Assembly: GCA_005191425.1 (NCBI GenBank) | Contig: SUPR01000029.1 | Location: forward strand, 1 to 36,736 | Length of the DNA: 36,736 nucleotides | Origin: Candidatus Helarchaeota ASGARD archaeon Hel_GB_B | Lineage (GTDB): Archaea > Asgardarchaeota > Lokiarchaeia > Helarchaeales > HEL-GB-B | Direction: 5' to 3' | Shown: piece by piece, positions 1,154-23,659 of the stretch | How positions within the stretch are numbered: the first letter of the stretch is position 1 | Layout: each line of letters begins with the position of its first letter | Notes under the pieces: generated by a model | What the model was told of the DNA's origin: nothing | Seen by the model: the letters and a program-made list of their open reading frames with translations, nothing else | Databases searched by the model: none | Translations under genes and position numbers: made by a program

Positions 1154-2410
1154 ATGTGTTTGATAGAGAAAAGCAATAAAAAAGCAGGTAAAAAGAGTAA
1201 ATTTAATAAAAATATTATAAAAAAGTATTTATTGTTAATTATAATATTTTATATACTTAACGGGTATATTTACTTAATTAATAATGTGAATGCATTTGAT
1301 AAATTTAGCTATGAACTTGAAAATAATTATACGGAATTAGACAAACCTGATTTTGCTATAACAAATGATTACATAGTTGCTTTAAACAGTTATATTTATC
1401 AAAACTATTCCTTTTATGTTATTAACAAAATTACAAGGAAATTAGAGAGGGTTGACACTTTAGAAGTTTTTGGGGAGCAATTTCAACCTTTGTTAGTAGC
1501 AGGTAATAATGATTTAAATTATACACAAAATTTAGTTGTAATGGTAAATGAGTGGGGTGATTTACTATTAGTTGATTTGAATCTTAATAAGATAATTAAA
1601 TCAACAAATTCGATATATTCAAATATTGATTATGAAATTAAGGGTTTAAAATATTACAAGCAATATATCATTTTAATCGCAAAAATTCCGAGTTCTAGCA
1701 GTTATTTTCTTGCAATTCTTAATGATGATTTGAGTTTGATTTATAATTTCTATTTAGAGGATAGTAGTAAGTATTTATTACAAAATTTGAAAATTTGTGA
1801 AAATTTTTTATTGACGATTTTTACACCAAAAGGTAATGAAAATATAGAGGATGAATTGTTCATATATAATCTGACGCAATTAGATGTACCACCCACAAAA
1901 ATAGTATTGGGAATAAATATATATGATTCTGCCATTTCAAAATATTATAATTTAATTTATATTGGAACTAAGGGTTCAATTATTTTTTTAGATTTAAAGG
2001 CATATTCAGTGGTAGATAGTTATAACCTCTCAATTATTCAATCATTGACTAATATTGGAAATTTAAAAGTTTATAACAATCAAATTGTTCTTTCATTTGT
2101 ATTTGATTCAAAAATTTACTTTTTCAACATTATTAATAGGACGAGTATTAATTATAAAGGATATATTTCAGGCCTAGAATTAGCAAATCAATTAGAGTTC
2201 GAATTTTTAGAACAATTAAGCAATAAATCTACTAGAATGGTAATAAATACATATACAAGTCTTCTTATAATCAAATTTAACCAAGATATTATGGATCCAT
2301 CCGTCTATGAAAAATATGGTATTAATATTCAAGAGTCTATGCCTATTATTTTACTTATTTTAGGCATTTCAGTAGTAGTACTATTTGTTCAACATAAAAA
2401 ACAAAAGTGA
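1154..2410 (+). CDS. Membrane-anchored extracytoplasmic protein (N-terminal TM, C-terminal TM and basic tail; possibly a beta-propeller-like ectodomain)
   Basis: 418-aa ORF; N-terminal KKYLLLIIIFYILNGYIYLI, C-terminal MPIILLILGISVVVLFVQHKKQK; repeated beta-strand-rich segments between. Confidence 0.85.
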   Translation: MCLIEKSNKKAGKKSKFNKNIIKKYLLLIIIFYILNGYIYLINNVNAFDKFSYELENNYTELDKPDFAITNDYIVALNSYIYQNYSFYVINKITRKLERVDTLEVFGEQFQPLLVAGNNDLNYTQNLVVMVNEWGDLLLVDLNLNKIIKSTNSIYSNIDYEIKGLKYYKQYIILIAKIPSSSSYFLAILNDDLSLIYNFYLEDSSKYLLQNLKICENFLLTIFTPKGNENIEDELFIYNLTQLDVPPTKIVLGINIYDSAISKYYNLIYIGTKGSIIFLDLKAYSVVDSYNLSIIQSLTNIGNLKVYNNQIVLSFVFDSKIYFFNIINRTSINYKGYISGLELANQLEFEFLEQLSNKSTRMVINTYTSLLIIKFNQDIMDPSVYEKYGINIQESMPIILLILGISVVVLFVQHKKQK

Positions 2411-2416
2411 ATTACC

Positions 2417-4894
2417 GTGAAATATAAATTAGATAAATATAATGATTATGAATACGAAAAAAGGATAGCAAACTTTCTATGGAAGAGTAGAGAAAATAAA
2501 ACACAATATTATAATTTAAAAGACATTATTATGACTATCTTACTAATAACTATTAGTATTTTTATAGCAGAAGCTATGACCTTATGGGTTAATATGTTTT
2601 GGACTTTAGCATTTTTAACAATAATGATGTTTTTCTCGGCATTTTTAATAAAATATTCTAGATTTTATAGATTACTACCGCTTCATTCTTCAATAATAGA
2701 AGAAATACAGCTACCAAATTCTATTAAATATTTCTTTTTGTTAGATAAAAATAATAGACCTAATTATGATGTTTTGTTTATTGATAATGGTGATAAAACA
2801 ACAGGATTAACATTATTTAAAATTAAAGCTCCCTCAAAGAAATTGTTTTATAGTTTTAATGAGTTTGTTAGAGGATTATATGAGAAAAAGGATGTCCCAC
2901 TTTTTTGGTATCAAGTCCAAGAACCTGTTGAATATAAAGATTTTATTGAACTAGATTGCATAACAGAAAAAGCAAAAAATAAACTTCTAATGTATCCAAG
3001 AGATTCTCGTGAATCATTACTTGTAGTTCCAGGTGGAATCTGGCGGACCACTATAATTTTTGGTACAAAAGGATTTACCGTACCAAATGCTCCATTGAAC
3101 GAATTAAAATTATTGTTAAAAAAGCTTGAAGTCTTGCGAATTAAGTTATTGACTAATTTTAAAGGGGTATCTTCTGGAATACCGATTAGTCCATTGACTA
3201 AAAAAGAATTATTTTCACTGGTCAATTCATTAATGATTAACCAAGATTGTGAGCAGTCAGTTTTTTACCAAACAGGTATTGAAAATGTGAATCATTTTCT
3301 AAATTTTCCAAAAATGGCAATTAAAAGTTTGAAATCAAAATATCCAGCGGAATTTACAGTACCTACCGATCTACCATATGATATTGGCCCACTTGGATAT
3401 TCTATAGAACCAGAATTTCAATCTACAGAACGGAGCATTGGATTATATTCTAAAGAATTAGGGCATGGATTATTAAGTGTAGGGGCTATCCAAGATGAAT
3501 TATTTAAAATTAATACCTTAGTTTTATACGAAGCTGTCATTCAGGAATATTCGTTTATAATTATTACCAGTAATAAAAAATATAGAAAAATGCTACAATA
3601 TATAGATAACCTGACTATTTTTCCATATAAAAAATATGGTATAGATATTTTTAATGATGAAGGATTTGAGCGTGAAAAATATATCTCAGAATTAGAGAAA
3701 ATCTTCAAAATATCATTATCATTAGACCAAGATGCTCCGCTTTATTCGATTTTAATTGAAATATATAATGAAGGAAATAGAAGTATCGATGGCTTAATTA
3801 GGCTTATTGAAGACAAAATAAAAAATGAAGGAACTGATATGAATTATAGAGATAGACAGGCCATTAATACTCTTAAAGAAACTCTCGAATTACTATTAAA
3901 AAGTGAAACTGCTAAATTTTTTGAGCTAAAGAATTTACCAATAGATAATAGATTACATAATTCAATTTTTGAAATAGATATTAGACAAAGAAAAGTAAAA
4001 AAGATTGTAATTTTTCTATTACTTTTAAAATTCGCTATAAAATCAATAGTTGATCAAAATTTCGGAAAAAATTTAATAATATTAATTGATGATGCAGATT
4101 TTATTTTTCATGACGAACGGCCCTACTCGCATGGAAATTTAACAGAACGGGAATTAACGACAATTGAATTCCTTAAATTCTTAAAGAGGTCTGGTGTTAT
4201 TCCATTTTTATCAATTTCAAATCCTAAAGATATAATCCCAGATATTATTAATGAATTAGGGAATGCTTTTGTTTCAAATATGAAAATTTTCGATAATATT
4301 ATGGCTATAAGGCAAGTATTAAATTTAAATTTAAACCGTGGCCAAAAAACAGAGGAACATAAACCTACTTTTTATTCAGAATTACGTAAATATGGATATC
4401 AATTTGAATATTTAAGTGATATGGCACCTAATGAATTCTTATTGAAAAGACCTGGTGTTAGGACATGTTTTCCGATATCTATTAGGCCATTAGAATTTAA
4501 TAACATAAATTATTCTGATGACCAAATTTTAAACCGAACTTATACTCAGATCCCTGAACTTAGAAAAACATTCTCAATTCCTGATTATGAAACAGTCCTT
4601 GAAAAAGACTTTAAGGGCGATCAAGATGATATCAATTCAGTTTTAGAAATTCTAGAAATTTTAATGGAATATCCAAGGATCTCTTTAAGCGCAATCATTT
4701 CTGCAACTTCATTAAATCAGAAAGAAGTTGATTATTTTATTAAATCACTTAAAAAATGCAAGTATATTAGGGCAGAGCAAGTGAGAAGTGGAGCATTTAA
4801 CAGATATGAAATCATAATAACAGATAAGGGTAGGTCTGTATATAGAGAATATATTCATTTAAAAAAAAGATTGACAGATGATGAAAATGAATAA
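2417..4894 (+). CDS. Membrane-bound HerA/VirB4-like ATPase homologue with degenerate P-loop and C-terminal winged helix
   Basis: 825 aa, GTG start; two N-terminal TM helices; GLYSKELGHGLLSVGAIQDELFKI at the HerA P-loop position; Walker B-like NLIILIDDADFIF; HerA-like tail APNEFLLKRPGVRTCFPISIRPLEF; C-terminal wHTH (YPRISLSAIISATSLNQKEVDYFIKSLKKCKYIRAEQ). Confidence 0.8.
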   Translation: MKYKLDKYNDYEYEKRIANFLWKSRENKTQYYNLKDIIMTILLITISIFIAEAMTLWVNMFWTLAFLTIMMFFSAFLIKYSRFYRLLPLHSSIIEEIQLPNSIKYFFLLDKNNRPNYDVLFIDNGDKTTGLTLFKIKAPSKKLFYSFNEFVRGLYEKKDVPLFWYQVQEPVEYKDFIELDCITEKAKNKLLMYPRDSRESLLVVPGGIWRTTIIFGTKGFTVPNAPLNELKLLLKKLEVLRIKLLTNFKGVSSGIPISPLTKKELFSLVNSLMINQDCEQSVFYQTGIENVNHFLNFPKMAIKSLKSKYPAEFTVPTDLPYDIGPLGYSIEPEFQSTERSIGLYSKELGHGLLSVGAIQDELFKINTLVLYEAVIQEYSFIIITSNKKYRKMLQYIDNLTIFPYKKYGIDIFNDEGFEREKYISELEKIFKISLSLDQDAPLYSILIEIYNEGNRSIDGLIRLIEDKIKNEGTDMNYRDRQAINTLKETLELLLKSETAKFFELKNLPIDNRLHNSIFEIDIRQRKVKKIVIFLLLLKFAIKSIVDQNFGKNLIILIDDADFIFHDERPYSHGNLTERELTTIEFLKFLKRSGVIPFLSISNPKDIIPDIINELGNAFVSNMKIFDNIMAIRQVLNLNLNRGQKTEEHKPTFYSELRKYGYQFEYLSDMAPNEFLLKRPGVRTCFPISIRPLEFNNINYSDDQILNRTYTQIPELRKTFSIPDYETVLEKDFKGDQDDINSVLEILEILMEYPRISLSAIISATSLNQKEVDYFIKSLKKCKYIRAEQVRSGAFNRYEIIITDKGRSVYREYIHLKKRLTDDENE

Positions 4895-5795
4895 ACTAAA
4901 GTTCATTTCTAATTTCATTATTATATTTTTTATGATTAATTTTATAATAGTAGGTTTAATCCCAAATATTTTTGGTATTTCTAATGCTACTCAGACATCA
5001 AATAATTTATATTTTTTATCGGTCGGAGAAGCGTATTATGAGTCAAAATCTAATGAACTTATACCAAATGAAGGACCAGCAATTTGGCATATTAAAACAA
5101 ATTTTGATAATGAATGCATATATATCTTATTTGATATTATGGACACAACAAATCCTGATAACAAAAATTTAGATCATTTGACATTTTATATTGATTTCAG
5201 CAATAATAATTATTTATCTGATAAATCGTCTTTTGGATTCTATATACAACGCAATTTATTAATTAAATATTACAGATACAATACAAATCAAGGAAATTTC
5301 GTTGAGGTATGTCCTCCCGATGACGGATCTATGGGTACTATACATATTTTACCTTCCTGGAAAGTTTATTATGTTTTTAATTATTCTCAATTTGGATATC
5401 CGAAATATCCCGAAAATCAGACGATAAAATTAATGGCAATTTATACAGACCATATTATTGGGTCTATTATATTAGATTATAAATATCCCAGTCTATGTAA
5501 CAGCTTATTAAAGAGTTCTTGGGCTACAGGGTATTTTATTGAAGGGTATTCAAATAATGATGCTTTTGTTATTACAATTTGGATATTAATTTTTATTATA
5601 ATTGCTGGATTTGCACTTATTTCATATAAACAATATAAAAGTTCATCAGAATTTCAAAAATTCAATAATAATAGACCTAAAAACAAAACAAATAGTTTAT
5701 TGAATTTTTCTATTCCAAGATTAAATGAAGAAGATTCTGGTGATGATGATATAAATTATGAAATTGATTCATTTGAAGGTTATGAACCATGGTAA
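4878..5795 (+). CDS. Type I membrane surface protein with beta-sandwich (DOMON/CBM9-like) ectodomain
   Basis: 305 aa; N-terminal hydrophobic signal/TM; ectodomain AIWHIKTNFDNECIYILFDIMDTTNPDNKNLDHLTFYIDFSNN; C-terminal TM VITIWILIFIIIAGFALISY; overlaps upstream CDS by 17 bp. Confidence 0.8.
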   Translation: MMKMNKLKFISNFIIIFFMINFIIVGLIPNIFGISNATQTSNNLYFLSVGEAYYESKSNELIPNEGPAIWHIKTNFDNECIYILFDIMDTTNPDNKNLDHLTFYIDFSNNNYLSDKSSFGFYIQRNLLIKYYRYNTNQGNFVEVCPPDDGSMGTIHILPSWKVYYVFNYSQFGYPKYPENQTIKLMAIYTDHIIGSIILDYKYPSLCNSLLKSSWATGYFIEGYSNNDAFVITIWILIFIIIAGFALISYKQYKSSSEFQKFNNNRPKNKTNSLLNFSIPRLNEEDSGDDDINYEIDSFEGYEPW

Positions 5796-6031
5796 ATTCT
5801 GAAATATTATTTGAGAAATCTCTTGTGTTAAAATTTTTAGAAATTTTTAAAATGAAAAAAATCAAATTGCTAAAAAAATGGGTTGATTATACAGCCCGAA
5901 TCATCTTTACCTTAAAAAATAACTGTAAAATACATTTGATATTATCAAAACTTAAAAAGAATTACATGTTTTATCATATAAAAACTTATATTCCAAATAT
6001 TAAATCTATATTAAGGATGTGTGCAAAATGA
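5789..6031 (+). CDS. Small basic protein of unknown function (coupled in gene string)
   Basis: 80-aa ORF overlapping both neighbours (7 bp and 13 bp); coding status uncertain. Confidence 0.45.
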   Translation: MVNSEILFEKSLVLKFLEIFKMKKIKLLKKWVDYTARIIFTLKNNCKIHLILSKLKKNYMFYHIKTYIPNIKSILRMCAK

Positions 6032-8496
6032 AAAAGAAGTCAACATTAATTATTGTTATTTTCATAATAACTGCACTGGTACTCATAATTAATTTAAAAT
6101 ATATGAACCAAAATAATATTTTGACTAAAAAAGACCTAAAAACTAATATACAACATTCTCAAGCCGAACCTTACTTCTATACTGTATATTCATCAAACTA
6201 TTATACAAGCTCAAATTACTCTATATTTGGCGGTCTTGCTGATTTAAAAACAGAAGTTCCAGGATTCATGAGTATTTCAAAATCATTTCATGGAATAGAG
6301 GGCTTAATATATATTGAATATGAATTTGATATGAGAAATATATATACAGATATAATGGACACTTTCATAATAGATTTACTTGCAAACGGAGGAATGAACT
6401 TAACTGGAACGACTAATCTAACCTTATACGTCTATAATTATACTACAGACAATTATATATCGATCTATAAAATAAATGGAGACACTGAAAATATTTTTAG
6501 AAAAAATGGATACATTGAAGTAGAACTTTCAAAAATATTTGGTATTAATAATATAAAATATAATTTAATCTCGCAATATAAAATGAAATTCAAAATTGTA
6601 TTACATAATAAATTGGTTAATACAATACCTCAAGATTTTGAGCAGAAATTATACATTTATTATATCCAATTATTAATTGGAAAAGATATTGAAATTAGAA
6701 ATTTAGAAGCTTCAAGGTTGGTCGACCTCACAAATGGATATTTTCATGTAATAGGAAATTTGACTAATATGTTTGAATTAGATAATAAAACAATTCAGTT
6801 TGGAATTTCTAATGTATTTCAATATCAAACGGTAATAGCGAATTTTTATATTGAATATGACCTTGGGTATTTCGTAAAAGAGGAAATCCTAGGCATTTTG
6901 TTCCATCATTTAGACTGGATATATAGTTCTGGCGCTAGCTTTTATTGCGAAGATCCGTATATTTCAATTTTTAATTTCAATACCAATTCTACTATATCCA
7001 TTCAGTCAATTAAAGAAGATCCACAAAGCTCACTAGAGAATGTTGATCCAATAAGGTGGGATAGTCGAATCAGTGTGAATAAAACCGGCGTTATTAATGG
7101 TTCGGTTATTAGGGTCTATTATCATGCAAAAATTACAAATTTAGATCCAGCGCCTGCTTATTTTAGTATTACTATAGACCTGGGTACAATACAATTTGTA
7201 AGATCGCTAAGTCCTTTTGTAGCTAATGTAAATGTAATTGACAATTATGAATATTGGGGAAATAATGCTTGGATAAATGGGACTGTCTACAAGGGAAAAT
7301 ATGATTTGGCTAACATTACTATTGAATCCTCAGGTGATGTTATTTCTACTGTTCCAGGTTATTTTGAATACCCAATAGTTATAAATTCTGAGGGACAATA
7401 TGAATTTTATGTAAAAGCAACAGACATATATGGCTATTCTAGTATTTCCGGCCCTTATTATATACAATTCAATAGCCACCCAGTCCAAATTAACTTATTA
7501 CTCGAAGAATTCCCATATCCAACCCCTCCAGATTTACCTAAAATAGATGTAAATATCTTAATTAAAGATGCTATTTTTAATATACCTTTGTCCAATACTT
7601 TTTTTGATCTATTTGTCGAACGAAATAATACCATAATAACAACTTATCGTAATTTATTAACAGGAGAAGATGGGACTTATCAACTTTATTACGATGTAGA
7701 ACGCGATAAATATCTTGATATAGAATATAAATTTACAGTTGAAGTCCATCAAATGATGAATTATCAATATGCTTCAGCATCATCATATATAATGCCTACA
7801 CTTGCACCTTGTTATATCACAATAATTAATTATACAATATCTAACAATGCTTTTGCAGGGGATCATTTTAGTTTACAAATTGAATATTATTCTCTTGCCA
7901 ATTTTACAAATGCTTGGTTATTATTAAATAATTCAATAATTAGTGATTTAAATCTCCATGAAGGAAATAATACAATAAATATTATTAATGATAGAGCTGG
8001 GTTATGCAATTATCAAATTCGAGTTATTAATGACCACGGCTATTCTAATATTTCAAAACCATTATACCTATATTTTAAACCCAATCCTATTATTTGTGAA
8101 GTTAAACATGTAATTAATTATTTAAATAAATACTTATTCATTAACATTTCAATTTTGGATAAAAGGACTAATCAGACACTACCTAATATCCCTATTGATA
8201 TCACTATTTATGATAATAATTTAATATTCTGGAAAACAACACTTCCTTCTACTTTACCATACACTCCAATATATATTCAATTCGATTTATCTTCTCATAA
8301 TTTCTCAATATTTGTAAATATCAATAATACTTCGTTATATAAGGGCCAAAGTATTAAAATTTTAAACATAGCCTTTAAATATAAACCATATCCATATTCT
8401 GAAACAATTCTTATGGTCGTATTATCTGGTGTGGGCATATCTGTCTTTTTTATTCAAAATAAGAAAAACAATATACACATAAAAAAGGAGGATTAA
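6019..8496 (+). CDS. Large surface protein with Ig-like/beta-sandwich domains and C-terminal TM anchor
   Basis: 825 aa; N-terminal TM (STLIIVIFIITALVLIINL), beta-rich ectodomain, C-terminal ETILMVVLSGVGISVFFIQNKKNN. Confidence 0.85.
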   Translation: MCKMKKKSTLIIVIFIITALVLIINLKYMNQNNILTKKDLKTNIQHSQAEPYFYTVYSSNYYTSSNYSIFGGLADLKTEVPGFMSISKSFHGIEGLIYIEYEFDMRNIYTDIMDTFIIDLLANGGMNLTGTTNLTLYVYNYTTDNYISIYKINGDTENIFRKNGYIEVELSKIFGINNIKYNLISQYKMKFKIVLHNKLVNTIPQDFEQKLYIYYIQLLIGKDIEIRNLEASRLVDLTNGYFHVIGNLTNMFELDNKTIQFGISNVFQYQTVIANFYIEYDLGYFVKEEILGILFHHLDWIYSSGASFYCEDPYISIFNFNTNSTISIQSIKEDPQSSLENVDPIRWDSRISVNKTGVINGSVIRVYYHAKITNLDPAPAYFSITIDLGTIQFVRSLSPFVANVNVIDNYEYWGNNAWINGTVYKGKYDLANITIESSGDVISTVPGYFEYPIVINSEGQYEFYVKATDIYGYSSISGPYYIQFNSHPVQINLLLEEFPYPTPPDLPKIDVNILIKDAIFNIPLSNTFFDLFVERNNTIITTYRNLLTGEDGTYQLYYDVERDKYLDIEYKFTVEVHQMMNYQYASASSYIMPTLAPCYITIINYTISNNAFAGDHFSLQIEYYSLANFTNAWLLLNNSIISDLNLHEGNNTINIINDRAGLCNYQIRVINDHGYSNISKPLYLYFKPNPIICEVKHVINYLNKYLFINISILDKRTNQTLPNIPIDITIYDNNLIFWKTTLPSTLPYTPIYIQFDLSSHNFSIFVNINNTSLYKGQSIKILNIAFKYKPYPYSETILMVVLSGVGISVFFIQNKKNNIHIKKED
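8485..8492 (+). promoter_or_regulatory. Shine-Dalgarno-like sequence (aaggagga) for the 8501 TTG-start gene
   Basis: AAAAAAGGAGGATTAATATT followed by TTG CAC TAT. Confidence 0.6.
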
Positions 8497-8500
8497 TATT

Positions 8501-8779
8501 TTGCACTATCTATTTAATTTTAATGATTTTGTAATTATTGTTAATGATCTTTTTGGCAATATTTTTCAATTTTTAATAATATGTGCTACATTATTATTAA
8601 TTGTAAACCTTCTTCTTTACTTTTTCACAAATCAGAAAGATTTAAAACCTATATTAACCTGCATAGCTACAGTAGGAATTTGTACTCTTCTAAATTATTT
8701 GATTTTTGGCCGATTCCCTTCCTTACCTCCATTTTTACAATTTATTGAGGTATGGATCAAACAACTATTGGGACTATAA
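8501..8779 (+). CDS. Small protein with two TM helices
   Basis: 92 aa: FQFLIICATLLLIVNLLLYFFTN ... PILTCIATVGICTLLNYLIFG; TTG start with strong SD. Confidence 0.7.
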   Translation: MHYLFNFNDFVIIVNDLFGNIFQFLIICATLLLIVNLLLYFFTNQKDLKPILTCIATVGICTLLNYLIFGRFPSLPPFLQFIEVWIKQLLGL

Positions 8780-9283: not shown

Positions 9284-9301
9284 TTTAATTCCTCTAATTT
9301 C

Positions 9302-9694: not shown

Positions 9695-11023
9695 CTAATA
9701 AGCTATTTTTATTGTATTAAAATTTTCATAACCAATCAATTTAGCATTAGATTTTAGTACAGAATTAATAAATTTAGTTAAAATCCGTAATTCTTGAGAT
9801 GGACGGGTCTCAGGGATTATTGTCATATTCATCAGGGTATTACATTCAGGACATTTGAAATCATCATTTTCAAAATATAATAAATAATTGAATGTTTTTA
9901 GGCAATTTGGACATTCCAAAATAATTGAATCGCCATTATTTTTTAGTTTATTATATTTGGATTCGAGCGATTTTTTAGTTAAATTAATAACTCGCATTGA
10001 ATTACTTATGAATTCTTTTCTCCCTCTTGCAAAATATTCGAGTATCCCCAATTCACTTAATTTGTATAGTGTGCGCCGAATTTCATTACTACCTACTTTA
10101 AATACTTGTTCTAATAAGGTATATGGAATTTTATCGTTATTATTATGATAAATACAATGCAATGAATACCCCCAAATTGTCAAATCAAATTCTTCAAGAG
10201 GATATAGGTTAATAATAGTCGTATAATATTTTTCTATCGAGCGTAATTCAAGTATTGTAGCCATGGCTAATGACTTGACTTTATCTGGCTTAAAATGCTT
10301 AAATAATAGCGTCAAATTACTTTTACCGCAGATTAAAAGTCCTTCATGATGGTCTGAGGATTTTATTCCAAGTTGAAATAAAATATCCTTGATTTGGTTT
10401 AGAAATGATTTTAAAAATTTTTTTTTGATATTAGAATGGATTTTTGAATTTAATAATCTTAAAATTAGAAATTCTCGAATTCCCCCCTGTCTGTTATTAA
10501 AAACATAATGAGCTTTTTTCGAACTAAAAAGTCCAGAAAGTATTCCCATTTTCACTTCATTAGAGAGTCCTTGAAGGATTTGTGGGCTCTGGATATTAAG
10601 TCCGATACATTTTAAATATTTTTTAAAAGAATTTGGAAACTTAACAATGAATTTTTGATAATATTTGTAAAATTTTTTTCTGTAGGTCTTACGTTTCTTT
10701 TCTTGCTTTTTGAGTTCTATTTTTACTCCAATTTTTTCACTAAATTTTTTAATAAAAGGAATTTGAGTGGGTTCTATGACCAAAATAAATTGTTTATTAG
10801 AAGAATAACTTGAACCAACGGCAATACCATAGAAATATCCATAATCATAATCTGGATTTTGTAATTTAAATTTTTGATTATTTATTAAAATATCGCAATT
10901 ATCAGTTAAATTCTTTAAAAATGGTGTTATTCGTACCCATTTATCATTATTAATATCATAATATTTAGCTTTTTCTTTACTTAGTCTATTAATTAGTAGT
11001 CTGTTGTTCAATATTCTAACCAC
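9695..11023 (-). CDS. LAGLIDADG-derived domain protein with wHTH and C-terminal zinc ribbon; putative regulator
   Basis: 442 aa; LAGLIDADG-like helices YGYFYGIAVGSSYS and VKMGILSGLFSSKKA without the catalytic D/E; wHTH around IPYTLLEQVFKVGSNEIRRTLYKLSELGILEYFARG; CPNC...CPEC zinc ribbon. Confidence 0.7.
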   Translation of the reverse strand: MVRILNNRLLINRLSKEKAKYYDINNDKWVRITPFLKNLTDNCDILINNQKFKLQNPDYDYGYFYGIAVGSSYSSNKQFILVIEPTQIPFIKKFSEKIGVKIELKKQEKKRKTYRKKFYKYYQKFIVKFPNSFKKYLKCIGLNIQSPQILQGLSNEVKMGILSGLFSSKKAHYVFNNRQGGIREFLILRLLNSKIHSNIKKKFLKSFLNQIKDILFQLGIKSSDHHEGLLICGKSNLTLLFKHFKPDKVKSLAMATILELRSIEKYYTTIINLYPLEEFDLTIWGYSLHCIYHNNNDKIPYTLLEQVFKVGSNEIRRTLYKLSELGILEYFARGRKEFISNSMRVINLTKKSLESKYNKLKNNGDSIILECPNCLKTFNYLLYFENDDFKCPECNTLMNMTIIPETRPSQELRILTKFINSVLKSNAKLIGYENFNTIKIAY

Positions 11024-11149
11024 CGAATTTTTATCAAATTATAAATCTTTGTCTTATAGTTACTGACAAAAACTATATATTAGTAAAAAAAATGGGGTTT
11101 TGAAGATAGTTTTGCCGTTTTTTTTGAGTTATAATTTGTTCATTTTATG

Positions 11150-11263: not shown

Positions 11264-12244
11264 TTATGAATTAAAAATGTAATGATCAATCCGCTTTTGC
11301 TTTATTTTTAAATCTTTGAATCCTTTATTTAACCTGGCTAAACCTCTTCGCACTCTATTTATAGAAAAATTCTTCTCTAATAAATATTCCTTAATAGCCA
11401 AAATATTTGGATATTGAAAATAAACATCAAATTTTGAGGTTATTGGTTTCAAGAATAGGTTTCTAATTTTATTAGCATCAAATTCGTTAAATTCGTAGTC
11501 CTTTCTCATGGTCTCAATATTACCATATTTCTTTATCATTTTTAATGATGTTTTAGGGCCAAATCCTTCGAATCCTGGATGATAATCATTTCCCATTAAG
11601 ATAATGATATCAATCAATTGGTTAAAAGAAATATCTAATTTTGTAAGTACTTTATTCAAAGAGATTTGCTGTAAAGTATTAGTCTTAAAGTTCAATTTTC
11701 TATAAATCTTTGGACATCCAAATATTAAGCAATCATAATCTTCAGAAATAACTCCATATGCCTGTTGCTCTTTAACAAGGCGCACCGCTTGAGCTTCTCC
11801 CTCACTTGGTGCTCTAAATACCGGAACTCCGAACATTCGTATAAATTTAATTAAATCTTCAATTATATATTTATATAGGAAGAATGAATCTTTAAAAACC
11901 TTTAACTTACTTCCATTTCCACCTAAACTATTATATTTTTTCCATGCATTTGACAACCTCTTAATTTTATAGTAATTATATGGTCTTTTTTCTCTTGGTG
12001 GAATTCCATCAAAGATAAAAATTGGTTTAATTTTTCGTTCGATTAAATTTATAATAAAATAAAAGAAACCATAGATATGAGAGACTGGATTTCCATGATA
12101 ATCATAAAAAATATCTTGAGAATTTTTTATTTTTGTTATATATTTAAATAATAAGTTAGTTGCGTCAATAACAATCGTCTTATGTGAAATATCACTAAAA
12201 TTTATTGTTTCTGAAATTACAAGTTCTTTTAATTTAAGACCCAA
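11264..12244 (-). CDS. fen: Flap endonuclease 1 (FEN1/XPG family)
   Basis: 326 aa; TIVIDATNLLFKY, PIFIFDGIPP, APSEGEAQAVRLV, VISEDYDCLIFG, MGNDYHPGFEGFGPKTSLKMIKKYG; C-terminal QKRIDHYIF resembles a PIP box. Confidence 0.95.
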   Translation of the reverse strand: MGLKLKELVISETINFSDISHKTIVIDATNLLFKYITKIKNSQDIFYDYHGNPVSHIYGFFYFIINLIERKIKPIFIFDGIPPREKRPYNYYKIKRLSNAWKKYNSLGGNGSKLKVFKDSFFLYKYIIEDLIKFIRMFGVPVFRAPSEGEAQAVRLVKEQQAYGVISEDYDCLIFGCPKIYRKLNFKTNTLQQISLNKVLTKLDISFNQLIDIIILMGNDYHPGFEGFGPKTSLKMIKKYGNIETMRKDYEFNEFDANKIRNLFLKPITSKFDVYFQYPNILAIKEYLLEKNFSINRVRRGLARLNKGFKDLKIKQKRIDHYIFNS

Positions 12245-13168: not shown

Positions 13169-13186
13169 TCTTATTCACTCCTTTCT

Positions 13187-13699
13187 TTATTTGATTAAAA
13201 ATTCAATTAGCCCAATAATGATATAAAAAATATTCCAAGCGATAATTATACCGTCATTTTGAAAAACCATCGGGTAGAAGCACATTCTCACAATTAAAAA
13301 TGTCATAAATCCCACCCAAAAAATTATCCAGGCAAGAAATATCACTTGCTTTTTTGTTAAAGAAAATTTATCTGAAACAAATAAATTGTATTGAAAAGAA
13401 TTGACATTTTTTTTACTACCATCAATAGAAATTATATCCGGAAGTTCTTTTGAAAGTTCCAACAAGATATTAACATTATCTTCTAGTTCTTTTATTTCAT
13501 CTGAAGATAAATTATTGTTAAAAATTGTGTCAAAATTAAAATCAATTTCATTCATTATGGTCTTAAAAGATAAAGCATTTGAAATTATTTCATTTGTATT
13601 ATTTTTTCTTATCAATAAATCCCAAATCACTACAATTGAAATTATTACTCCAATAATAACCGGCCAAAACGAAATAAAAAAATTGATAATTAAATCCAT
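13187..13699 (-). CDS. Membrane protein (N-terminal TM, helical middle, C-terminal TM helices)
   Basis: 170-aa intact ORF; FWPVIIGVIISIVVIWDLLI, VIFLAWIIFWVGFMTFLIV, AWNIFYIIIGLIEFLI. Confidence 0.75.
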   Translation of the reverse strand: MDLIINFFISFWPVIIGVIISIVVIWDLLIRKNNTNEIISNALSFKTIMNEIDFNFDTIFNNNLSSDEIKELEDNVNILLELSKELPDIISIDGSKKNVNSFQYNLFVSDKFSLTKKQVIFLAWIIFWVGFMTFLIVRMCFYPMVFQNDGIIIAWNIFYIIIGLIEFLIK

Positions 13700-13708
13700 A
13701 ATAACACC

Positions 13709-14134
13709 CTAATTTTCAAAATCAAATAATTCAGATGAAAAGAAATCTTCTAAATCACAATTCACCAATTCAGATTCAATTTTTCTTCTAATAATTTTGG
13801 TAATTTCGGGATTTGGCCCAATAATATAAACACAAACAAGGTCATTATTTAAAATAACATTTTTCGAGTTAGAATCATTGACCGAAATTATAGCATTTTT
13901 GAAGTAGAAAGTATCATAAATTCTTTTTGCACCGATAAATTTACTTGGAATTATGTTATTTATTAATAATATTTTCTGATTTTTAGTTATATATAATAAT
14001 TCAGATTCTTTTCTTCTTGAATAATATTTAGATCTGGCTAATCTAACATCTTTAGGAAGAAAATTTATGAGTCTAAAGTATAAATAGAAAATTATTCCGA
14101 CAATTATAACTCCAATCAGTAAAATCTCAATCAT
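13709..14134 (-). CDS. Single-TM protein with soluble C-terminal domain
   Basis: 141-aa intact ORF; N-terminal IEILLIGVIIVGIIFYLYF. Confidence 0.75.
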   Translation of the reverse strand: MIEILLIGVIIVGIIFYLYFRLINFLPKDVRLARSKYYSRRKESELLYITKNQKILLINNIIPSKFIGAKRIYDTFYFKNAIISVNDSNSKNVILNNDLVCVYIIGPNPEITKIIRRKIESELVNCDLEDFFSSELFDFEN

Positions 14135-14233: not shown

Positions 14234-16897
14234 GTGAATAAATTGATCAAGTACGATAAGATCATTAAAGATATGTTAGAAAAAGTTGGTATCGAAAATT
14301 TACGGCCAATTCAGAAGCAGTCGGTGCCATTTATATTTGGGAAAAAGCCAAGAAACTTATTAATAGTGGCACCCAGTGCCAGTGGAAAAACTTTAATTGG
14401 GGAGCTTGCGTTAATGAATGCTGCATTAAACGGAATGAAAGGTTTTTATTTAGTCCCATTAAAATCTATAGCAAATGAAAAATTTATAGATTTCTTCAAA
14501 AAATATAGTGCTAATATTTCGATTGCAATCACTACGGGGGATTTTGATATCTCTATGGAAGAATTGGAAAAAAAACAAATAATAATAACAACATATGAGC
14601 GATTTGATTCAATTATTAGAAAAAAACCTTCTTGGTTTAAAAGGATTTTTGTAGTAGTTATTGATGAAATCCATAATATTGGCGATAGAACTCGTGGTAT
14701 AAAACTTGAGAGCCTTTTAACCCGACTTATGACTTATAATCAAATTCAAATTATTGGACTATCGGCTACAATTAAAAATCCAGAGGACTTAGCAAGCTGG
14801 TTAAATGCGGAATTAATAATAAACAAAGAAAGACCCGCAGAATTGCGATATAAAATTCTTATCTCAGAAAATAAATATGAAACCTTAAAAAATTTAATAC
14901 CAAAATTGGTCGAAAAAAAAGCACAAATACTAATTTTTACTAGAACTCGAAAAGAGTCAGAAAAATTAGCAAAAAATCTATCAAAAGTTGTCAAAAAATA
15001 CCTCACTTTTGATGAATTTCAGGAATTGGATTCATTTTCTAAAAATATTATGGAGTCATCACTTGATTTTCAGACAATTACTGGCGGTGTTGGCTATCAC
15101 CATGCCGGCTTAGATCATAATTCAAGAATTTTAGTTGAAAAATTGTTTAATAATTCATTAATTAAAGTCATTTGTTGTACTACTACATTGTCTTCCGGGA
15201 TAAATACGCCTGCAAATATTGTAATAATAAAGGATTTTAAAATGTACAATAATATTTCAAACAGACCAGAACTTTTGGATAAAAATAAATTCCATCAAAT
15301 TTCTGGAAGAGCTGGAAGATTTGAAAAAAATATTGGTTTTGCAATTATTATGGTATCAAATGAAGAGGAAGCAAATAAAGTAAAGGAATATTATTTTAAA
15401 GAAATTAATTTAAATAATGATAAATATCATAAAAAAAGCGTTTTAAAAGCTAAATATGAAAATATTTTTAGTTCATTACCTGAAAATAGATATGCTTTAA
15501 TCGATCAAACATTGGTTTTTATTCATCACCATGCTGAAGGAATAACTAGAAATGATTTAATTAGATTTTTTAAAAAGACATTCTTTTATTTTCAATTAAA
15601 AAGCCATGGAAATGAAGATTATTTAATAGAACGACTTGCGTTTGATAAAAAGAATATAGAAGCTGTCTTAAGAGCTCATTTAGTTAACCCCAATAACATT
15701 ATACCTGCGGAAGTAAAGGCTATACATATATTAGAAGATAGATTTGAAGGTATTGTTATTACTAATCATGAAAAAATTGATAGAATTTGTAGTTTTTCTA
15801 ATAATTCCCGATACTGCACTTGCTCCACTTTTAAAAATACAGGTTTTTGTATTCATTTATATCATTTAGCTATTGCAGCATTGAAAAAATATCGGATTTC
15901 ATCGGAAGATATCATTTTAAGTTCATTTAATGAAAATTTTATTTTAGATTATCTTCTTAATAACAATCTAATTTATATCGAAAATGAGCGGTTTAAGTGT
16001 ACAGAATATGGAAATTTAATTGTGAATCTATTTATAGACTCGCGTATGTTTCTATTTATTAGAAATAGATTGAAATTTACTACTTGTACTTATGATTTTT
16101 TAGATTTGATTAAAAAATTAACGGAATTAAAGTTTGAAAAATCTCTGAGTTATCATTATCTTTCAGTATTAAATGAAATAATAAATACTGACGAAAATAT
16201 CGATATTAATAAATTTTTAAAAAAGATGAGTACATCTGAAATTGGAATTGGTGACCTTGAGAGTTTTATAGAGGCATGTAGATGGGTAACTAATGTGATA
16301 ATAAAAGTTGCAGAAAATACAATTGAAGGAAACGAAAAAATCATTAATATTGGAAAAATGGTCTTGGATAAAATAAATAGACCATTACCAGATGAAGAAA
16401 TGATGTATAAAATAGTCCAAAGCTCAATGGGTTCGAATATTGGCATTATAAAAAGTAACGATGAAGATATGAAACGAATATTCTGTAAAAAAGTCAAATA
16501 TTTTTTAGTATTACATAAAATAAGCGGAGTCCCAATTTATTCATATAATTTCTCTCTTAATGACCTTGACTCGTCATTAATATCTGGTTATTTGACAGCA
16601 ATTAGTAGTTTCGGGCTAGAAATATCTGGAGGAATTCAAACAAACGTGAAAAAAATGGAATATGATAAAATGAAAATTTTGATACAAGAAGGAGAAAACA
16701 TTCGAGCTACTATTATCTTGGAAGAAGGATATGATGAATGGGTTTTAGAGCGACTTAAAATTTTTATTGAAAATGTTGAGAATAAATTTACAAATTTACA
16801 GAACTGGAATGGAGATTTAAACATGTTTCGGAATATCGGAAAAATGTTTAATGAAGTATTTGGTTATAATCTAATTGAAGACCCGCCAAATATTTAA
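14234..16897 (+). CDS. Ski2/Hel308-like superfamily 2 helicase with SWIM zinc finger and C-terminal longin/roadblock-like domain
   Basis: 887 aa, GTG start; LLIVAPSASGKTLIGE (Walker A), VVVIDEIHNI (DEIH), GLSATI, VGYHHAGL, HQISGRAGRF; SWIM CxCx(n)CxH = YCTCSTFKNTGFCIHLYHL; C-terminal YFLVLHKISGVPIYSYNF...SSLISGYLTAISSFG. Confidence 0.92.
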   Translation: MNKLIKYDKIIKDMLEKVGIENLRPIQKQSVPFIFGKKPRNLLIVAPSASGKTLIGELALMNAALNGMKGFYLVPLKSIANEKFIDFFKKYSANISIAITTGDFDISMEELEKKQIIITTYERFDSIIRKKPSWFKRIFVVVIDEIHNIGDRTRGIKLESLLTRLMTYNQIQIIGLSATIKNPEDLASWLNAELIINKERPAELRYKILISENKYETLKNLIPKLVEKKAQILIFTRTRKESEKLAKNLSKVVKKYLTFDEFQELDSFSKNIMESSLDFQTITGGVGYHHAGLDHNSRILVEKLFNNSLIKVICCTTTLSSGINTPANIVIIKDFKMYNNISNRPELLDKNKFHQISGRAGRFEKNIGFAIIMVSNEEEANKVKEYYFKEINLNNDKYHKKSVLKAKYENIFSSLPENRYALIDQTLVFIHHHAEGITRNDLIRFFKKTFFYFQLKSHGNEDYLIERLAFDKKNIEAVLRAHLVNPNNIIPAEVKAIHILEDRFEGIVITNHEKIDRICSFSNNSRYCTCSTFKNTGFCIHLYHLAIAALKKYRISSEDIILSSFNENFILDYLLNNNLIYIENERFKCTEYGNLIVNLFIDSRMFLFIRNRLKFTTCTYDFLDLIKKLTELKFEKSLSYHYLSVLNEIINTDENIDINKFLKKMSTSEIGIGDLESFIEACRWVTNVIIKVAENTIEGNEKIINIGKMVLDKINRPLPDEEMMYKIVQSSMGSNIGIIKSNDEDMKRIFCKKVKYFLVLHKISGVPIYSYNFSLNDLDSSLISGYLTAISSFGLEISGGIQTNVKKMEYDKMKILIQEGENIRATIILEEGYDEWVLERLKIFIENVENKFTNLQNWNGDLNMFRNIGKMFNEVFGYNLIEDPPNI

Positions 16898-16900
16898 TAT

Positions 16901-18859
16901 TTACAAATTAATTTTGTTATAAAACATTTTTACAATTCTTCCAACAAGTCCCTCATATTTTTCGATTTTTATAATCCTGTCTTGTATCCAATTACTTAAT
17001 AATTTAAAATATTTTTTATAAAAAAATCTTTCATCTAAAAATATTATTATTCCTTTATCATCAAGTTTTCTGATAGGTCTTCCTGCTGATTGATTTGCTT
17101 TTCTTAAAGCAGGGATATAATACGCATATTCCAGTCCTCGTTCTTCACCAAATAAGTTTTGATAATATTTAATCAATTTTTTTATTGAATACGAAATTTT
17201 TGCAAAAGGTATGCCAACTATGACTACAGTACTCATTTCCTTACCTGGAAAATCTACACCCTCAGAGTTTCTACCACCAGATGCACCAATTAAAAACCCT
17301 CTCATACCCTTGTAAGGTAATTTCTTATATTCAGTGATCATAGCTTCGTTCTCTTTACTATTCATACTTTTAGATTCCATGAAAAATTTGATCCCCAATT
17401 CCTCTATTTTTTCTTTTAGCCCTTGTTCTAAAAGTCCATTAATTACTGAATAAGATGCACAGAAAACCCCTGTATTATATTTTGTGTTTTTAGCTGCTTC
17501 AACACAACAATTCATGATAAACCTATAATTCTCTTCAGTTCGGTCTTCAAATTTTAGAGTGATATCTTGTACTCCTATTATTGAAACATTTTCAAATGGG
17601 AATGGCGATGGTAGTATTCGTTCTTTAGTATTATCAAGGGTCATCCCGCAAATTTCTCGGAATGCTCGTATCGGCGCTAAAGTACCAGAAATTATCACCA
17701 AATTTCTTGCATTAAATAAATCATTTAAAATGGGTCTAACATCAAGTGTTTTAATCACAAACTCAACATTTATTTTATTTTTAACTTTAGATACTCTTAA
17801 AATATGAATATAGTCTGGTCTTAAATAATTTTGATAGATAAATTGTAAAAAATGTGCTGTTTTATATAGGCTAGACCTAGGAAGTTTATTATTTTTAAGC
17901 ATTAATTCTCGAACTTGTACCCCTTTTTCTATTAAATTATTGAAAAAATTCTCAATATTGTCTGTTTTTATTTGAGAGAAAATATTTTTTAATGTACTTT
18001 TTCTAACAGCTATTTCGATAGTTTCACCCTCTTTTGGGTCGTATGCCATCCCAGTAGTTTCAATAAATGATTTAATGTCCTTAAGAAATTGTATTGATGG
18101 GACATCATCGTCTAATAGTAATCCAATTAATTCATCTAAAGCTCTTTTAACTGATCTGGGTGTGATTTGTTGAGTCCCTGCTTCTAATGCCACATCAATT
18201 ATATTATGCCCTTCATCAAATACAATTATGCAATCAGAAATTAATTTATCGATATCTTTGAAAAAAATTTGCCTGATAAATGGGTGAATTAGATAATTGA
18301 ATGTCGTAATAATTACATCAGTCTCTTTCAATAGTCTTTTTGCCAGATAATAAGGACATATATTATATCTTACGCCAATAGCAATTAATTCTTCACTTTT
18401 ACCTGTTTTTAAATTATATTCAAAATTTTGTAAATTGGTGAAATATTTACAACTTCCATTTTTTCGCAATTGGCTACAAAGATCTGTAATCTCCATTATT
18501 GTCCCTCTCCTGACTTCTTCATTAAGACACATCTCGGTTTTCCCTTTTAATGTTAAACCTCTAACCACATAACCTTGATCACTACCTTTTTTGTTTATTT
18601 CCTCTAATTCAGCAATAACCCTATCCATTTGGGTATGCGTCCGAGTAGCATATATCATAGTTAAATTGTTTTGCTTGATAATTGGTATAATAGCAGATAA
18701 AGTTGTTATTGTTTTACCAGAACCATTTGCAGCTTCTATGAGAATGAATTTATGTGGTAATTTTAAATGGTCATATATTTCATTCATTAATAGACCTTGT
18801 CCAGGCCTAAGTGAATTATAGGGAAAAAACTTTCTAATTGAAGAAGGAATTGATATCAT
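16901..18859 (-). CDS. XPD/Rad3-family Fe-S DNA helicase
   Basis: 652 aa; EAANGSGKTITTLSA; four Fe-S-type cysteines (MCLNEE, LCSQL, SCKYF, ICPYYLA); IIVFDEGHNIID; QSAGRPIRKLDDKG. Confidence 0.95.
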   Translation of the reverse strand: MISIPSSIRKFFPYNSLRPGQGLLMNEIYDHLKLPHKFILIEAANGSGKTITTLSAIIPIIKQNNLTMIYATRTHTQMDRVIAELEEINKKGSDQGYVVRGLTLKGKTEMCLNEEVRRGTIMEITDLCSQLRKNGSCKYFTNLQNFEYNLKTGKSEELIAIGVRYNICPYYLAKRLLKETDVIITTFNYLIHPFIRQIFFKDIDKLISDCIIVFDEGHNIIDVALEAGTQQITPRSVKRALDELIGLLLDDDVPSIQFLKDIKSFIETTGMAYDPKEGETIEIAVRKSTLKNIFSQIKTDNIENFFNNLIEKGVQVRELMLKNNKLPRSSLYKTAHFLQFIYQNYLRPDYIHILRVSKVKNKINVEFVIKTLDVRPILNDLFNARNLVIISGTLAPIRAFREICGMTLDNTKERILPSPFPFENVSIIGVQDITLKFEDRTEENYRFIMNCCVEAAKNTKYNTGVFCASYSVINGLLEQGLKEKIEELGIKFFMESKSMNSKENEAMITEYKKLPYKGMRGFLIGASGGRNSEGVDFPGKEMSTVVIVGIPFAKISYSIKKLIKYYQNLFGEERGLEYAYYIPALRKANQSAGRPIRKLDDKGIIIFLDERFFYKKYFKLLSNWIQDRIIKIEKYEGLVGRIVKMFYNKINL

Positions 18860-19629
18860 TTATTATAAACCCCTTTTTTATAGTTATATAGAAGTTTTCC
18901 AGTTAATAGACTAACAAGTATACCAATTACAATTGAAATTATCATATAATTATAATTTATAAAAAATAAATTTATAAGATTAGAACGAGCAAATCCTGAA
19001 TAATTAGAATTGATTATTGTACAAGTTAATATCGGCTCAGATACTAGATTTTCTCTTATTGAAACTTCATATTTCAACAATATTTTAGAATTTATATCAT
19101 AATAATAGGAAATAATCAGTGCTTGAGTAAAAACTGTTATAATATGTGTATAGACTTGACATAAAATCAACCCGATTTTATTTCCGAAATCAATCACTTC
19201 TAACTGGGATTTCTGAAATAAAACTTCTGATGGGGAAAGATTTGTAGCCAATATTATTTGTGGTTGAAAATCCATTAATATCCACTGCTGATGGTCATTA
19301 TCTTGGTCTTTACCAGTTTCTGGATCTATATAATATGTGCTACTTTTTATATATTCGAAAAAATTTAATCTATAGTTTTCAGTATATGTGACAATTATAA
19401 CCTGACTAGAAATATTAAATTGAACTTCGATATTCGATTGATATTGACCTTTTAAATAGAAGGAATCAGGACTAATCTCTATCAAATTTCCATTAACTAT
19501 ATATGATACATTAAAATTGCCTAAAGTTGCTGAATAAGTTATTTTTGAATAGAAAATTAACATATTAAATAAACCAAAAATAGATAAAAGAATAATAAAA
19601 AAAATACTAGCCCTATTTTTAAAATTCAT
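18856..19629 (-). CDS. Membrane-anchored extracytoplasmic protein of unknown function
   Basis: 257 aa; N-terminal SIFFIILLSIFGLFNMLIFY and C-terminal YMIISIVIGILVSLLTGKLLYNY; 4-bp overlap with xpd-like gene. Confidence 0.8.
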   Translation of the reverse strand: MNFKNRASIFFIILLSIFGLFNMLIFYSKITYSATLGNFNVSYIVNGNLIEISPDSFYLKGQYQSNIEVQFNISSQVIIVTYTENYRLNFFEYIKSSTYYIDPETGKDQDNDHQQWILMDFQPQIILATNLSPSEVLFQKSQLEVIDFGNKIGLILCQVYTHIITVFTQALIISYYYDINSKILLKYEVSIRENLVSEPILTCTIINSNYSGFARSNLINLFFINYNYMIISIVIGILVSLLTGKLLYNYKKGVYNK

Positions 19630-19653: not shown

Positions 19654-20751
19654 TTACGAGCGTTTTCTTCGTACTATCTTTTTAGTTTGTGGGACTTCTT
19701 TTTCAACTGTATTAATTTGCCTTTCTGTTGATGGATTTTTATTCATTTTGGTATCGGATTGTTTTATTGTATTTATTTTAACAGGTTTTACACCTAAATC
19801 ATAATATCCAGTATCTCGTAATACAAGTACAACTTCACTTTTTGGTAAATCTACGGCTTTTTCAACTTTAAATTTACGTTCTCCTTTTGCTGAACTTTTG
19901 ATTGTAACTTGGATTCTGATTTCCGATTCATGTCCAATTACATTTCCCATTGAATGTTTAATTCCAGCGCCATAGCCCGAAGGGTCGCCTGTTGCTTGAT
20001 TTGTAATTACAGCAACAATGTTATATAATTTAGCAAATTTTTTAATTTCATGAAGTATTTGATTGGCTTTTTGTTGTCGCTCGGGTATTAATTGCCTTTG
20101 TGCACCATATTCTGACCTAAAATGCGTAGCAATTGAGTCAAGTACTACTAATTTAGCACCCGTTAATTCTATTTGCGTTCCTAATTGTTGAGAACACATA
20201 TATCGTAATGCATCAGAATTAGCTGGAACTGCCCGAGAAATTCCTTTAATAACTGCATTACCATCTAGACCAAACCTGGGCGCTATCTCTCTAATTCTTT
20301 TTAATGATAAAGAATTTTCTGCATCAATAAATACAGTACCCCCACCAAGTCCTCCTTTTGATTTTGGCAAAGCAGCAGTACATATCAATTGATGTAGCAT
20401 ATTTGATTTTCCGGTACCCTCAGGACCCCAAAATTCATACAATCTTTGAGTAGACAAACCCCCACCTAATATTTCATCAAAAGTTTTACAGCCGGTCGTT
20501 AATATTTCTCTTTTATTATATTCTTCTAATAATTCGTCTCCTGTCTTAAATTTAAGACCAAGTACCCCATCTGACTGTTCAGCCGCAGATCTAATAATTT
20601 TTTTTGCAACAGCTTCTGTAATTCCATCAATTGCAGCTAATTCACTAGGCCTCGCAGTTGCTATTGATTCTATAGTTCTAAAACCATTATCAATTAGTTT
20701 CTGGGCAGTAGTAGCTCCAATTCCATCCAATCTTTCTAAATCTGAACTCAA
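19654..20751 (-). CDS. radA: DNA repair and recombination protein RadA
   Basis: 365 aa; N-terminal HhH LDGIGATTAQKLIDNGF; Walker A GPEGTGKS; LVVLDSIATHFRSEYGAQRQLIPERQQKANQ; ITNQATGDPS. Confidence 0.96.
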   Translation of the reverse strand: MSSDLERLDGIGATTAQKLIDNGFRTIESIATARPSELAAIDGITEAVAKKIIRSAAEQSDGVLGLKFKTGDELLEEYNKREILTTGCKTFDEILGGGLSTQRLYEFWGPEGTGKSNMLHQLICTAALPKSKGGLGGGTVFIDAENSLSLKRIREIAPRFGLDGNAVIKGISRAVPANSDALRYMCSQQLGTQIELTGAKLVVLDSIATHFRSEYGAQRQLIPERQQKANQILHEIKKFAKLYNIVAVITNQATGDPSGYGAGIKHSMGNVIGHESEIRIQVTIKSSAKGERKFKVEKAVDLPKSEVVLVLRDTGYYDLGVKPVKINTIKQSDTKMNKNPSTERQINTVEKEVPQTKKIVRRKRS

Positions 20752-22948: not shown

Positions 22949-23659
22949 ATGAATGATAATAAAAGAAGGGCATCTTTAAATTTCTTGACACTAAAAAGCG
23001 GACTGGATGGATTGGATAGGCAACTAAGAAATGGTTTTAGCCCAGGAATAATTCACATTTATGGCCCCCCTAATACTGGCAAATCTAATTTTGCAATGCA
23101 ACTTGTATTAAATGCGATTACTACTTATGATTCTGAACCAATTTGGATTGATACAAATAATAATTTTGAATTTAGAAGACTTATCCAAATGACTGGAAAT
23201 AATATAAGAATATTGAGAAATTTCAAATATTTAAATCCTATAAATTACGATGAATTTAAAATTTTGATCGAAAATATCCCAAAAATTATAGATAATAAAA
23301 CAATGGTGCTTGTAATTGATCCCATTACTTATTTCTATAGATTAAATGTGAATTTAAATAATTGGTTCGGCTTAAAACGAGATTTAATTAAAATTCTTGG
23401 AAAATTTATTGGTATCTCTGTTAAAAATCATTTAATAATTATATTAGTCAATCAAATAAAAGGTCATGAAATGAAATTAGAAGCAGTGTGTCAGGATATT
23501 CTAGAATTATATTCAAAATATTCATTACTTTTTGAGAATAAAAATGGCTTAACTATTACTCTTCGTAAATTACGTAATATAAAACTCAATAAGAAATTTA
23601 AGTTTAAAATATCAAACAATGGACTTTCGGATTTTAGCACAAAAATAGGAATTGATTAA
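22949..23659 (+). CDS. RadB-like RecA-superfamily ATPase
   Basis: 236 aa; SPGIIHIYGPPNTGKSNFAMQL; MVLVIDPITYFYR; IILVNQIKG; no HhH domain. Confidence 0.8.
   Translation: MNDNKRRASLNFLTLKSGLDGLDRQLRNGFSPGIIHIYGPPNTGKSNFAMQLVLNAITTYDSEPIWIDTNNNFEFRRLIQMTGNNIRILRNFKYLNPINYDEFKILIENIPKIIDNKTMVLVIDPITYFYRLNVNLNNWFGLKRDLIKILGKFIGISVKNHLIIILVNQIKGHEMKLEAVCQDILELYSKYSLLFENKNGLTITLRKLRNIKLNKKFKFKISNNGLSDFSTKIGID

Follow-up and report, generated by a model that had tools for sequence, protein, structure and literature searches.

Positions 1154-8779 of contig SUPR01000029.1, from assembly GCA_005191425.1 of Candidatus Helarchaeota ASGARD archaeon Hel_GB_B, hold a string of co-directional genes for membrane-anchored proteins, among them a relative of HerA and VirB4 that is named HerANC here. 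The whole stretch of DNA analysed, 36,736 nucleotides long, is referred to as the window; genomes, contigs, loci and families are given with our working labels (G, C, L and f followed by a number), and the comparisons cover 232 Asgard genomes, namely that of the window and 231 others. A preliminary description of the string as an undescribed surface apparatus named the key protein correctly and pointed to a real system, although it saw only one edge of a larger island; the novelty of the locus is this conserved island with its dead VirB4-type core rather than the six-gene string. The open reading frames (ORFs) of the string are as follows (aa, amino acids; TM, transmembrane segment; NTD, N-terminal domain).

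P1, 1154..2410, + strand: 418 aa, TM at both ends
HerANC, 2417..4894, + strand: 2-TM hairpin, VirB4-NTD-like domain (N), pseudo-ATPase domain of HerA/VirB4 fold (C) and PadR-like winged helix; no P-loop
P3, 4878..5795, + strand: 305 aa, TM-anchored ectodomain
80-aa ORF, 5789..6031, + strand: probably no gene, coding signature absent
P5, 6019..8496, + strand: 825 aa, TM-anchored, mostly beta ectodomain; ATG at 6028 a possible start
P6, 8501..8779, + strand: 92 aa, 2-TM, after P5, GGAGG upstream

A re-check reproduced exactly the stated coordinates, strand and lengths as well as the gaps of 6 and 4 bp and the overlaps of 17, 7 and 13 bp, and the TM segments lie where they had been placed: P1, P3 and P5 each have one hydrophobic helix at the N-terminus and another at the C-terminus, HerANC has the hairpin and P6 two TMs. 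Five of the six ORFs are credible genes, whereas the 80-aa ORF at 5789-6031 lacks a codon-position signature, its GC content at codon positions 1-3 being 0.20/0.19/0.23 against ~0.3/0.25/0.18 in the neighbours. Its loss as a gene leaves a gap of ~230 bp between P3 and P5, and one terminator-like stem lies in this gap at 5879 (such stems were found by the scan in a number not above that of shuffled sequence); a single transcript for the string is therefore unsupported. Two transcription units, P1-HerANC-P3 and then P5-P6, are as likely as one; the start of P6 is preceded by a good GGAGG site.

The VirB4/HerA-type core

The 2-TM hairpin of HerANC spans aa 37-78. An AlphaFold (AF2) model built from a 51-sequence alignment has a mean predicted local distance difference test score (pLDDT) of 84.9, and its first match in a Foldseek search of the PDB is TrwK/VirB4 of R388 (E 1e-11 over 743 columns, the N-terminal domain being covered), with HerA (4d2i) next; the best local structural match is the C-domain of VirB4 (4ag5; TM-score 0.71 by target, root-mean-square deviation 4.3). 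The family profile matches HerA chains at 6e-9 and the canonical HerA of the same genome at 3.4e-5, and the C-terminus matches a winged helix of HTH_34/PadR type. Fold and profile similarity thus place HerANC by descent in the HerA/VirB4 (FtsK-HerA) superfamily, and the earlier call of a HerA/VirB4-like protein with a C-terminal winged helix-turn-helix is borne out, by profile against HerA chains and by structure against TrwK/VirB4 over the whole length. Searches of Pfam, PDB sequences and PADLOC with single proteins of the string gave only a weak winged helix of any use, and a scan of genome contigs with the HerANC protein of the window alone found no relative; a scan with a Thorarchaeal alignment identified the large family f28 as Thorarchaeota through identical contigs.

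The suspicion that the ATPase is inactive is likewise upheld, since the Walker A P-loop expected of an FtsK-HerA superfamily ATPase is absent from HerANC and from every island-type relative aligned. HerANC thus represents a pseudo-ATPase family rather than one decayed gene. The P-loop is present in the HerA of the same genome (AQTGAGKS) and in two further TM-bearing VirB4/HerA-like proteins encoded there, at G000:C135 (L174:5477-9604; 1375 aa) and G000:C140 (L175:3766-8088; 1440 aa), which have 4-5 TM, match the profile of HerANC with 2e-16 and 2e-11 and keep an intact GLIGMGKT motif. A gene of ~515 aa adjoins each of these two paralogues, and the one on C135 (L174) encodes a B12-binding radical SAM protein.

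By profile, the C domain is found in 218 of the 232 genomes, strongly in several dozen, and many of the weak matches are probably other HerA-type proteins. The parts of the core are arranged differently among the relatives. Five families (f3, represented by L031, f9, f10, f18 and f20) encode N and C in two adjoining genes, Thorarchaea (f28) have them fused, with a ~198-aa 2-TM gene just upstream, and in the class-mates of the window genome (f6) a single protein of ~1.3 kaa (thousand aa) consists of N, N and C in series. In the window, 2417-4894 encodes N fused to C, and a second, solitary N domain lies 7.5 kb away on the opposite strand, next to two genes for small membrane proteins.

N2, 12395-13168, - strand: second TM hairpin and N domain without C domain; fused to HerANC in class-mates
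B, 13187..13699, - strand: small membrane protein (TM + 2-TM) beside N2
A, 13709..14134, - strand: small 1-TM protein with cytoplasmic domain

N2 matches the N profile at E 2.5e-60, N2 itself being one row of that profile. The fusion of N2, N and C in class-mates speaks well for N2 and HerANC forming one unit despite the distance and the opposite strands, and it predicts that both act jointly. Orthologues of B adjoin HerAN at L031:11690-12169 and L140:480-968 (phmmer 5e-6 and 0.004), while A is the positional counterpart of the A proteins in L031, L038 and L040 (match 0.007) and of the C-terminus of the F21 proteins, to which the A protein of L040 is matched with a probability of 94.6. In f9 and f10 the genes run in the order Hel308, A, B, N, C, each overlapping the next slightly. 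In these two families (L038 and L040) a NifH-like gene stands directly after HerA-C with an overlap of a few bases, and L038 also has a nitrogenase-component-like gene; both are probably unrelated to the island. A HerANC 48% identical occurs in L196 (MAXT01000013.1), a contig labelled Desulfuromonadales bacterium that is possibly a mis-binned Thorarchaeal contig.

The recombination island and its surface proteins

The genes most constantly found beside HerANC encode relatives of the helicases Hel308 and XPD, the nuclease FEN1 and the recombinases RadA and RadB. Hel308 is nearby in 38 of the 54 loci examined and at least one of the five in 45, a count that includes a few RadA labels below 45 bits (dropped from the family count) and L146, a flanking piece without a scored HerANC. 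Counted by family of the Genome Taxonomy Database (GTDB) and within 10 kb of HerANC, Hel308 is present in 10/16 families (binomial P ~1e-13, assuming 3 Hel308 genes per genome) and any of the five in 14/16; the closest locus of each family was used, which makes these counts somewhat generous. In most Thorarchaea the end of HerANC and the beginning of Hel308 share 4 bp, and the genes form the co-directional string RadA - XPD - 2-TM - HerANC - Hel308 - 2-TM - P-loop protein - 3-TM - RadB-like - FEN1. All five recombination genes lie within ~18 kb of HerANC in the window, where most island parts are found downstream of the string (8903-24480).

R442, 9695..11023, - strand: Zn-ribbon/winged helix-turn-helix-like; also near island genes in G083 and G084
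FEN1-like nuclease, 11264..12244, - strand: active-site motifs intact; below FEN1 equivalog cut-off
Hel308-like helicase, 14234..16897, + strand: motifs intact; C-terminal extension common to the protein at 26849
XPD/Rad3-like helicase, 16901..18859, - strand: motifs intact
E257, 18856..19629, - strand: TM-anchored ectodomain protein beside the RadA paralogue, also so placed in G083 and G084
RadA paralogue, divergent, 19654..20751, - strand: three higher-scoring RadA elsewhere in the genome
RadB-like P-loop protein, 22949..23659, + strand

The catalytic motifs are intact in the recombination proteins of the window, which differ from their ordinary counterparts in other respects. The RadA of the island scores 240 bits against the RadA model, compared with 395-442 for the three others of the same genome; a comparable split was seen in the other genomes checked, and in a RadA tree the island copies fall outside the canonical group. 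A single origin of all island RadA was considered and is not supported by this tree, in which the copies have long branches and are not united in one clade. Four of the five in the window are divergent, Hel308, FEN1, RadA and RadB all scoring below the NCBIfam equivalog cut-offs, and XPD passes a subfamily cut-off; the island FEN1 is nevertheless the best XPG_I match in the genome, which is incomplete. On these sequence comparisons RadA is shown to be private to the island, and the same is suggested for Hel308, XPD, FEN1 and RadB. A separate, ordinary NurA-HerA-Mre11-Rad50-like string is encoded on contig C98.

The exact six-gene order put forward in the preliminary description is not kept in relatives, whereas HerANC and, separately, P5 with a small 2-TM protein are kept in one shared island. 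Full-length orthologues of P5 occur only in two order-mates, G083 and G084, in both cases on the island and near the RadA paralogue and an E257-like protein (weak matches, 0.005 and 0.04). Downstream of P5 in these genomes follow small 2-TM proteins (two in G083; one in G084, behind a 5-TM gene), a large protein (1334/1354 aa), a Gtr1/RagA-like GTPase (an assignment tested with Pfam in G084) and XPD. P5 and P6 are accordingly island parts in this order. Other families carry different ectodomain proteins in the same place, such as an M28-peptidase-like ectodomain with an A domain at the C-terminus beside the RadA paralogue in f20, and proteins of 782/988 aa with a TM at both ends in f6. The earlier assignment of beta-sandwich surface proteins stands for P5 insofar as its model is all-beta, but only at low confidence (pLDDT 51.7; ~80 for aa 510-760); Foldseek returned generic macroglobulin/Ig-like chains with a TM-score of ~0.1, which do not allow the fold to be interpreted. 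A topology of two TMs with a basic loop is common to P6 and five similar small proteins; if the positive-inside rule applies, they would be oriented as VirB2 is. Comparison of P6 with the 116-aa 2-TM protein of L031 gave 27% identity over 49 columns (E 0.61), and sensitive comparison between families detected no relatedness among the larger membrane proteins near Hel308 (F11, F17, F23).

Some further features of the window and of related loci were recorded. A 1666-aa protein (26849-31849) combines a large N-terminal region with a C-terminal cytoplasmic part and has TMs near 12 and 1192; over residues 1241-1373 it is similar to the C-terminal extension of the window Hel308 (33.8%, E ~1e-13). 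The gene at 21280-22704, which lies between RadA and RadB, encodes a B12-binding radical SAM protein, as does a neighbour of the P-loop-bearing paralogue on C135. Genes for M50-like membrane proteases, below Pfam cut-offs, lie in or beside the island of several families (L146:1963-2730, L147:2415-3161, L139:5531-6202), and a weak TFIIB-type zinc-ribbon protein is found nearby in L147; a TFB paralogue controls the Ced genes of Sulfolobales. At the contig end (window 1-234) there is a tandem array of 21/33-bp units (TGTTCAAATCTTTTGTCCA...), with scores up to 316.

Possible exchange of DNA or repair at the membrane

The homology and fold of the core, the loss of its P-loop, the N2-N-C fusion, the phylum-wide linkage, the divergence of several recombination genes and the retention of P5 with a 2-TM protein within the order are best joined by a membrane platform on a pseudo-VirB4 core, serving most likely as a Ced/Ted-like system for exchange or for import and recombination of DNA; we prefer this reading tentatively, with chances a little short of even. 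The core would be an Asgard membrane complex on a VirB4/HerA-type protein without ATPase activity, anchored by TM hairpins and built from two N modules (N2, N) and one C module, joined by the small membrane proteins A and B. We infer that this catalytically dead protein, probably as a ring, binds DNA and forms a portal or scaffold at the membrane. On the cytoplasmic face it would work with the neighbouring set of RadA-/RadB-like recombinases, Hel308-/XPD-like helicases and FEN1-like nuclease: the helicases, which keep their ATPase motifs, would process the strand and so do the work that the core no longer can, and the RadA paralogue would pair the strand with the chromosome. The outward part would consist of P5, E257 and P6, in this lineage also of P1 and P3, and probably serves cell contact or DNA capture, DNA presumably moving inward if import is the task. 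Exchange of DNA is favoured as the purpose because surface proteins are present and because the system resembles Ced/Ted.

Several observations weigh against a transport function. To judge from the missing P-loop, the core lacks its own motor and what a working VirB4-type ATPase such as CedB or TedB would need. The paralogues on C135 and C140 would better suit the role of a true transport motor, and no recombination genes occur in the stretches read around them; since these P-loop-bearing proteins are encoded elsewhere in the genome, a motor could act in trans, or DNA transport could be the task of those loci. A profile test of P6 and the five similar proteins for homology to VirB2, CedA1 or TedC gave no match to solved pilins or to any pilin family of Pfam. 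A VirB6/CedA-like channel was not identified among the island proteins, several of which have 3-5 TM; those scanned had no informative Pfam match, and no direct comparison with CedA was made. P1 and P3 have no orthologue in the 231 other genomes. The linkage alone also fits membrane-tethered repair without DNA transport.

Such a repair centre, in which the pseudo-VirB4 would anchor recombination forks or the chromosome at the membrane and the ectodomain proteins would be unrelated neighbours, is the main rival, and we regard it as unlikely though serious. It accounts for the cytoplasmic nature of the constant neighbours, which are recombination enzymes, for a HerANC without P-loop but with a C-terminal winged helix, and for the fact that neither a channel nor a pilin has been shown; it does not account for the recurrence of ectodomain proteins in the islands (P5 and E257 in order-mates, the M28-peptidase-like protein of f20, the 782/988-aa proteins of f6). 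By these data an exchange system and a repair centre are poorly told apart; either is better distinguished from a chance arrangement and from a complex purely for adhesion or sensing.

The preliminary description had also offered a sensor or adhesion complex, in which a ligand would be sensed by the ectodomains and the signal passed on to DNA by the pseudo-ATPase and its winged helix. The inactive ATPase, the winged helix, the TM-anchored ectodomains and, in two order-mates, a Gtr1/RagA-like GTPase encoded close to P5 and the 2-TM genes agree with this proposal. Other readings fit better, because Hel308, RadA, RadB, XPD and FEN1, and not adhesins, are what is most constantly encoded nearby, a linkage that the proposal leaves unexplained; P1 and P3 are, moreover, private to this genome, and the proposal is accordingly improbable. 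That unrelated genes of an AT-rich genome came to lie side by side by chance is judged still less probable for the string 1154-8779: its gene order is not kept in relatives, P1 and P3 are orphans and the 80-aa ORF is probably no gene, but HerANC and P5 with the 2-TM protein lie in one island in order-mates. Defence against mobile elements of the HerA type (SIR2-HerA, DUF4297-HerA) is very improbable: the HerA fold and the solved HerA defence complexes among the Foldseek matches speak for it, yet no string protein has a PADLOC match, no effector domain was recognised, the P-loop is absent and the linkage to recombination genes is kept across many families.

A bolder form of the exchange reading is possible, though less probable than the platform itself, and would make the island a phylum-wide, previously undescribed exchange-and-recombination apparatus, in which the dead VirB4-like core replaces the transport ATPase, dedicated relatives of RadA, RadB, Hel308, XPD and FEN1 do the DNA work and surface receptors are lineage-specific; the closest relatives of eukaryotes would then have a system akin to sexual exchange. 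Asgard archaea are the prokaryotes closest to eukaryotes, and our literature search found no paper in which recombination genes and a membrane system of VirB4 type are connected in them. A conserved membrane complex with a private recombinase set provides a concrete and testable gene list, from lineages relevant to how eukaryotic recombination and cell contact arose. The island also offers a clear case of a VirB4/HerA family retained phylum-wide after loss of the motor, with P-loop-bearing paralogues in the same genome for comparison.

Comparison with known systems

The paralogues on C135 and C140 share TM helices and the HerA/VirB4 fold with HerANC and differ in their intact GLIGMGKT P-loop and in the lack of recombination genes in the stretches read. 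The HerA-NurA-Mre11-Rad50 operon resembles the island in its HerA fold and in the processing of DNA ends; HerANC, however, has TMs and no P-loop, and the NurA-HerA set of the genome is on C98, so that HerANC is not the HerA ATPase with a NurA partner of an end-resection complex. Nor is it the HerA ATPase of a defence system with a SIR2/DUF4297-type effector, having neither a PADLOC match nor a P-loop. VirB4 of the type IV secretion system (T4SS), as TrwK of R388, is similar to HerANC in fold over the whole length, including the N-terminal domain, and in its association with the membrane. The HerANC family is set apart from it by the loss of the P-loop in all members, the built-in TM hairpins, the one or two N modules and a neighbourhood of recombination enzymes in which no other T4SS gene was recognised.

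The analogy to Ced and T4SS drawn in the preliminary description was a good lead, TrwK/VirB4 and HerA being the best structural matches, although the tie to a phylum-wide recombination island was missed. CedB and CedD of the Ced system of Sulfolobales are VirB4/HerA relatives, many with TM helices, and their two NTDs jointly make a VirB4-like NTD (PMC11868833). The layout of HerANC, with TM hairpin, VirB4-NTD and ATPase fold, is comparable to that of CedB/CedD (PMC11868833), and HerANC is, as in Ced and Ted, a TM-bearing VirB4-like protein with an NTD. CedB and CedD are described as ATPases, whereas the Asgard ATPase is dead, its N modules stand in one chain or in two genes and no CedA-like channel was seen. 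The VirB4-like protein of the Ted system of Thermoproteales is, as in the island, genomically associated with recombination genes (HerA-like, Rad50; PMC9905601) and has small TM proteins in its neighbourhood; the Ted system differs in that TedB is reported to be an ATPase, and homology of P6 to TedC is not detectable. DNA imported by Ced and Ted feeds recombination repair (PMC9905601, PMC11868833). With an inactive VirB4 and with neither channel nor pilin shown, the island falls outside Ced and Ted as members, yet by analogy it is best read as a system that would work as they do, coupled to recombination.

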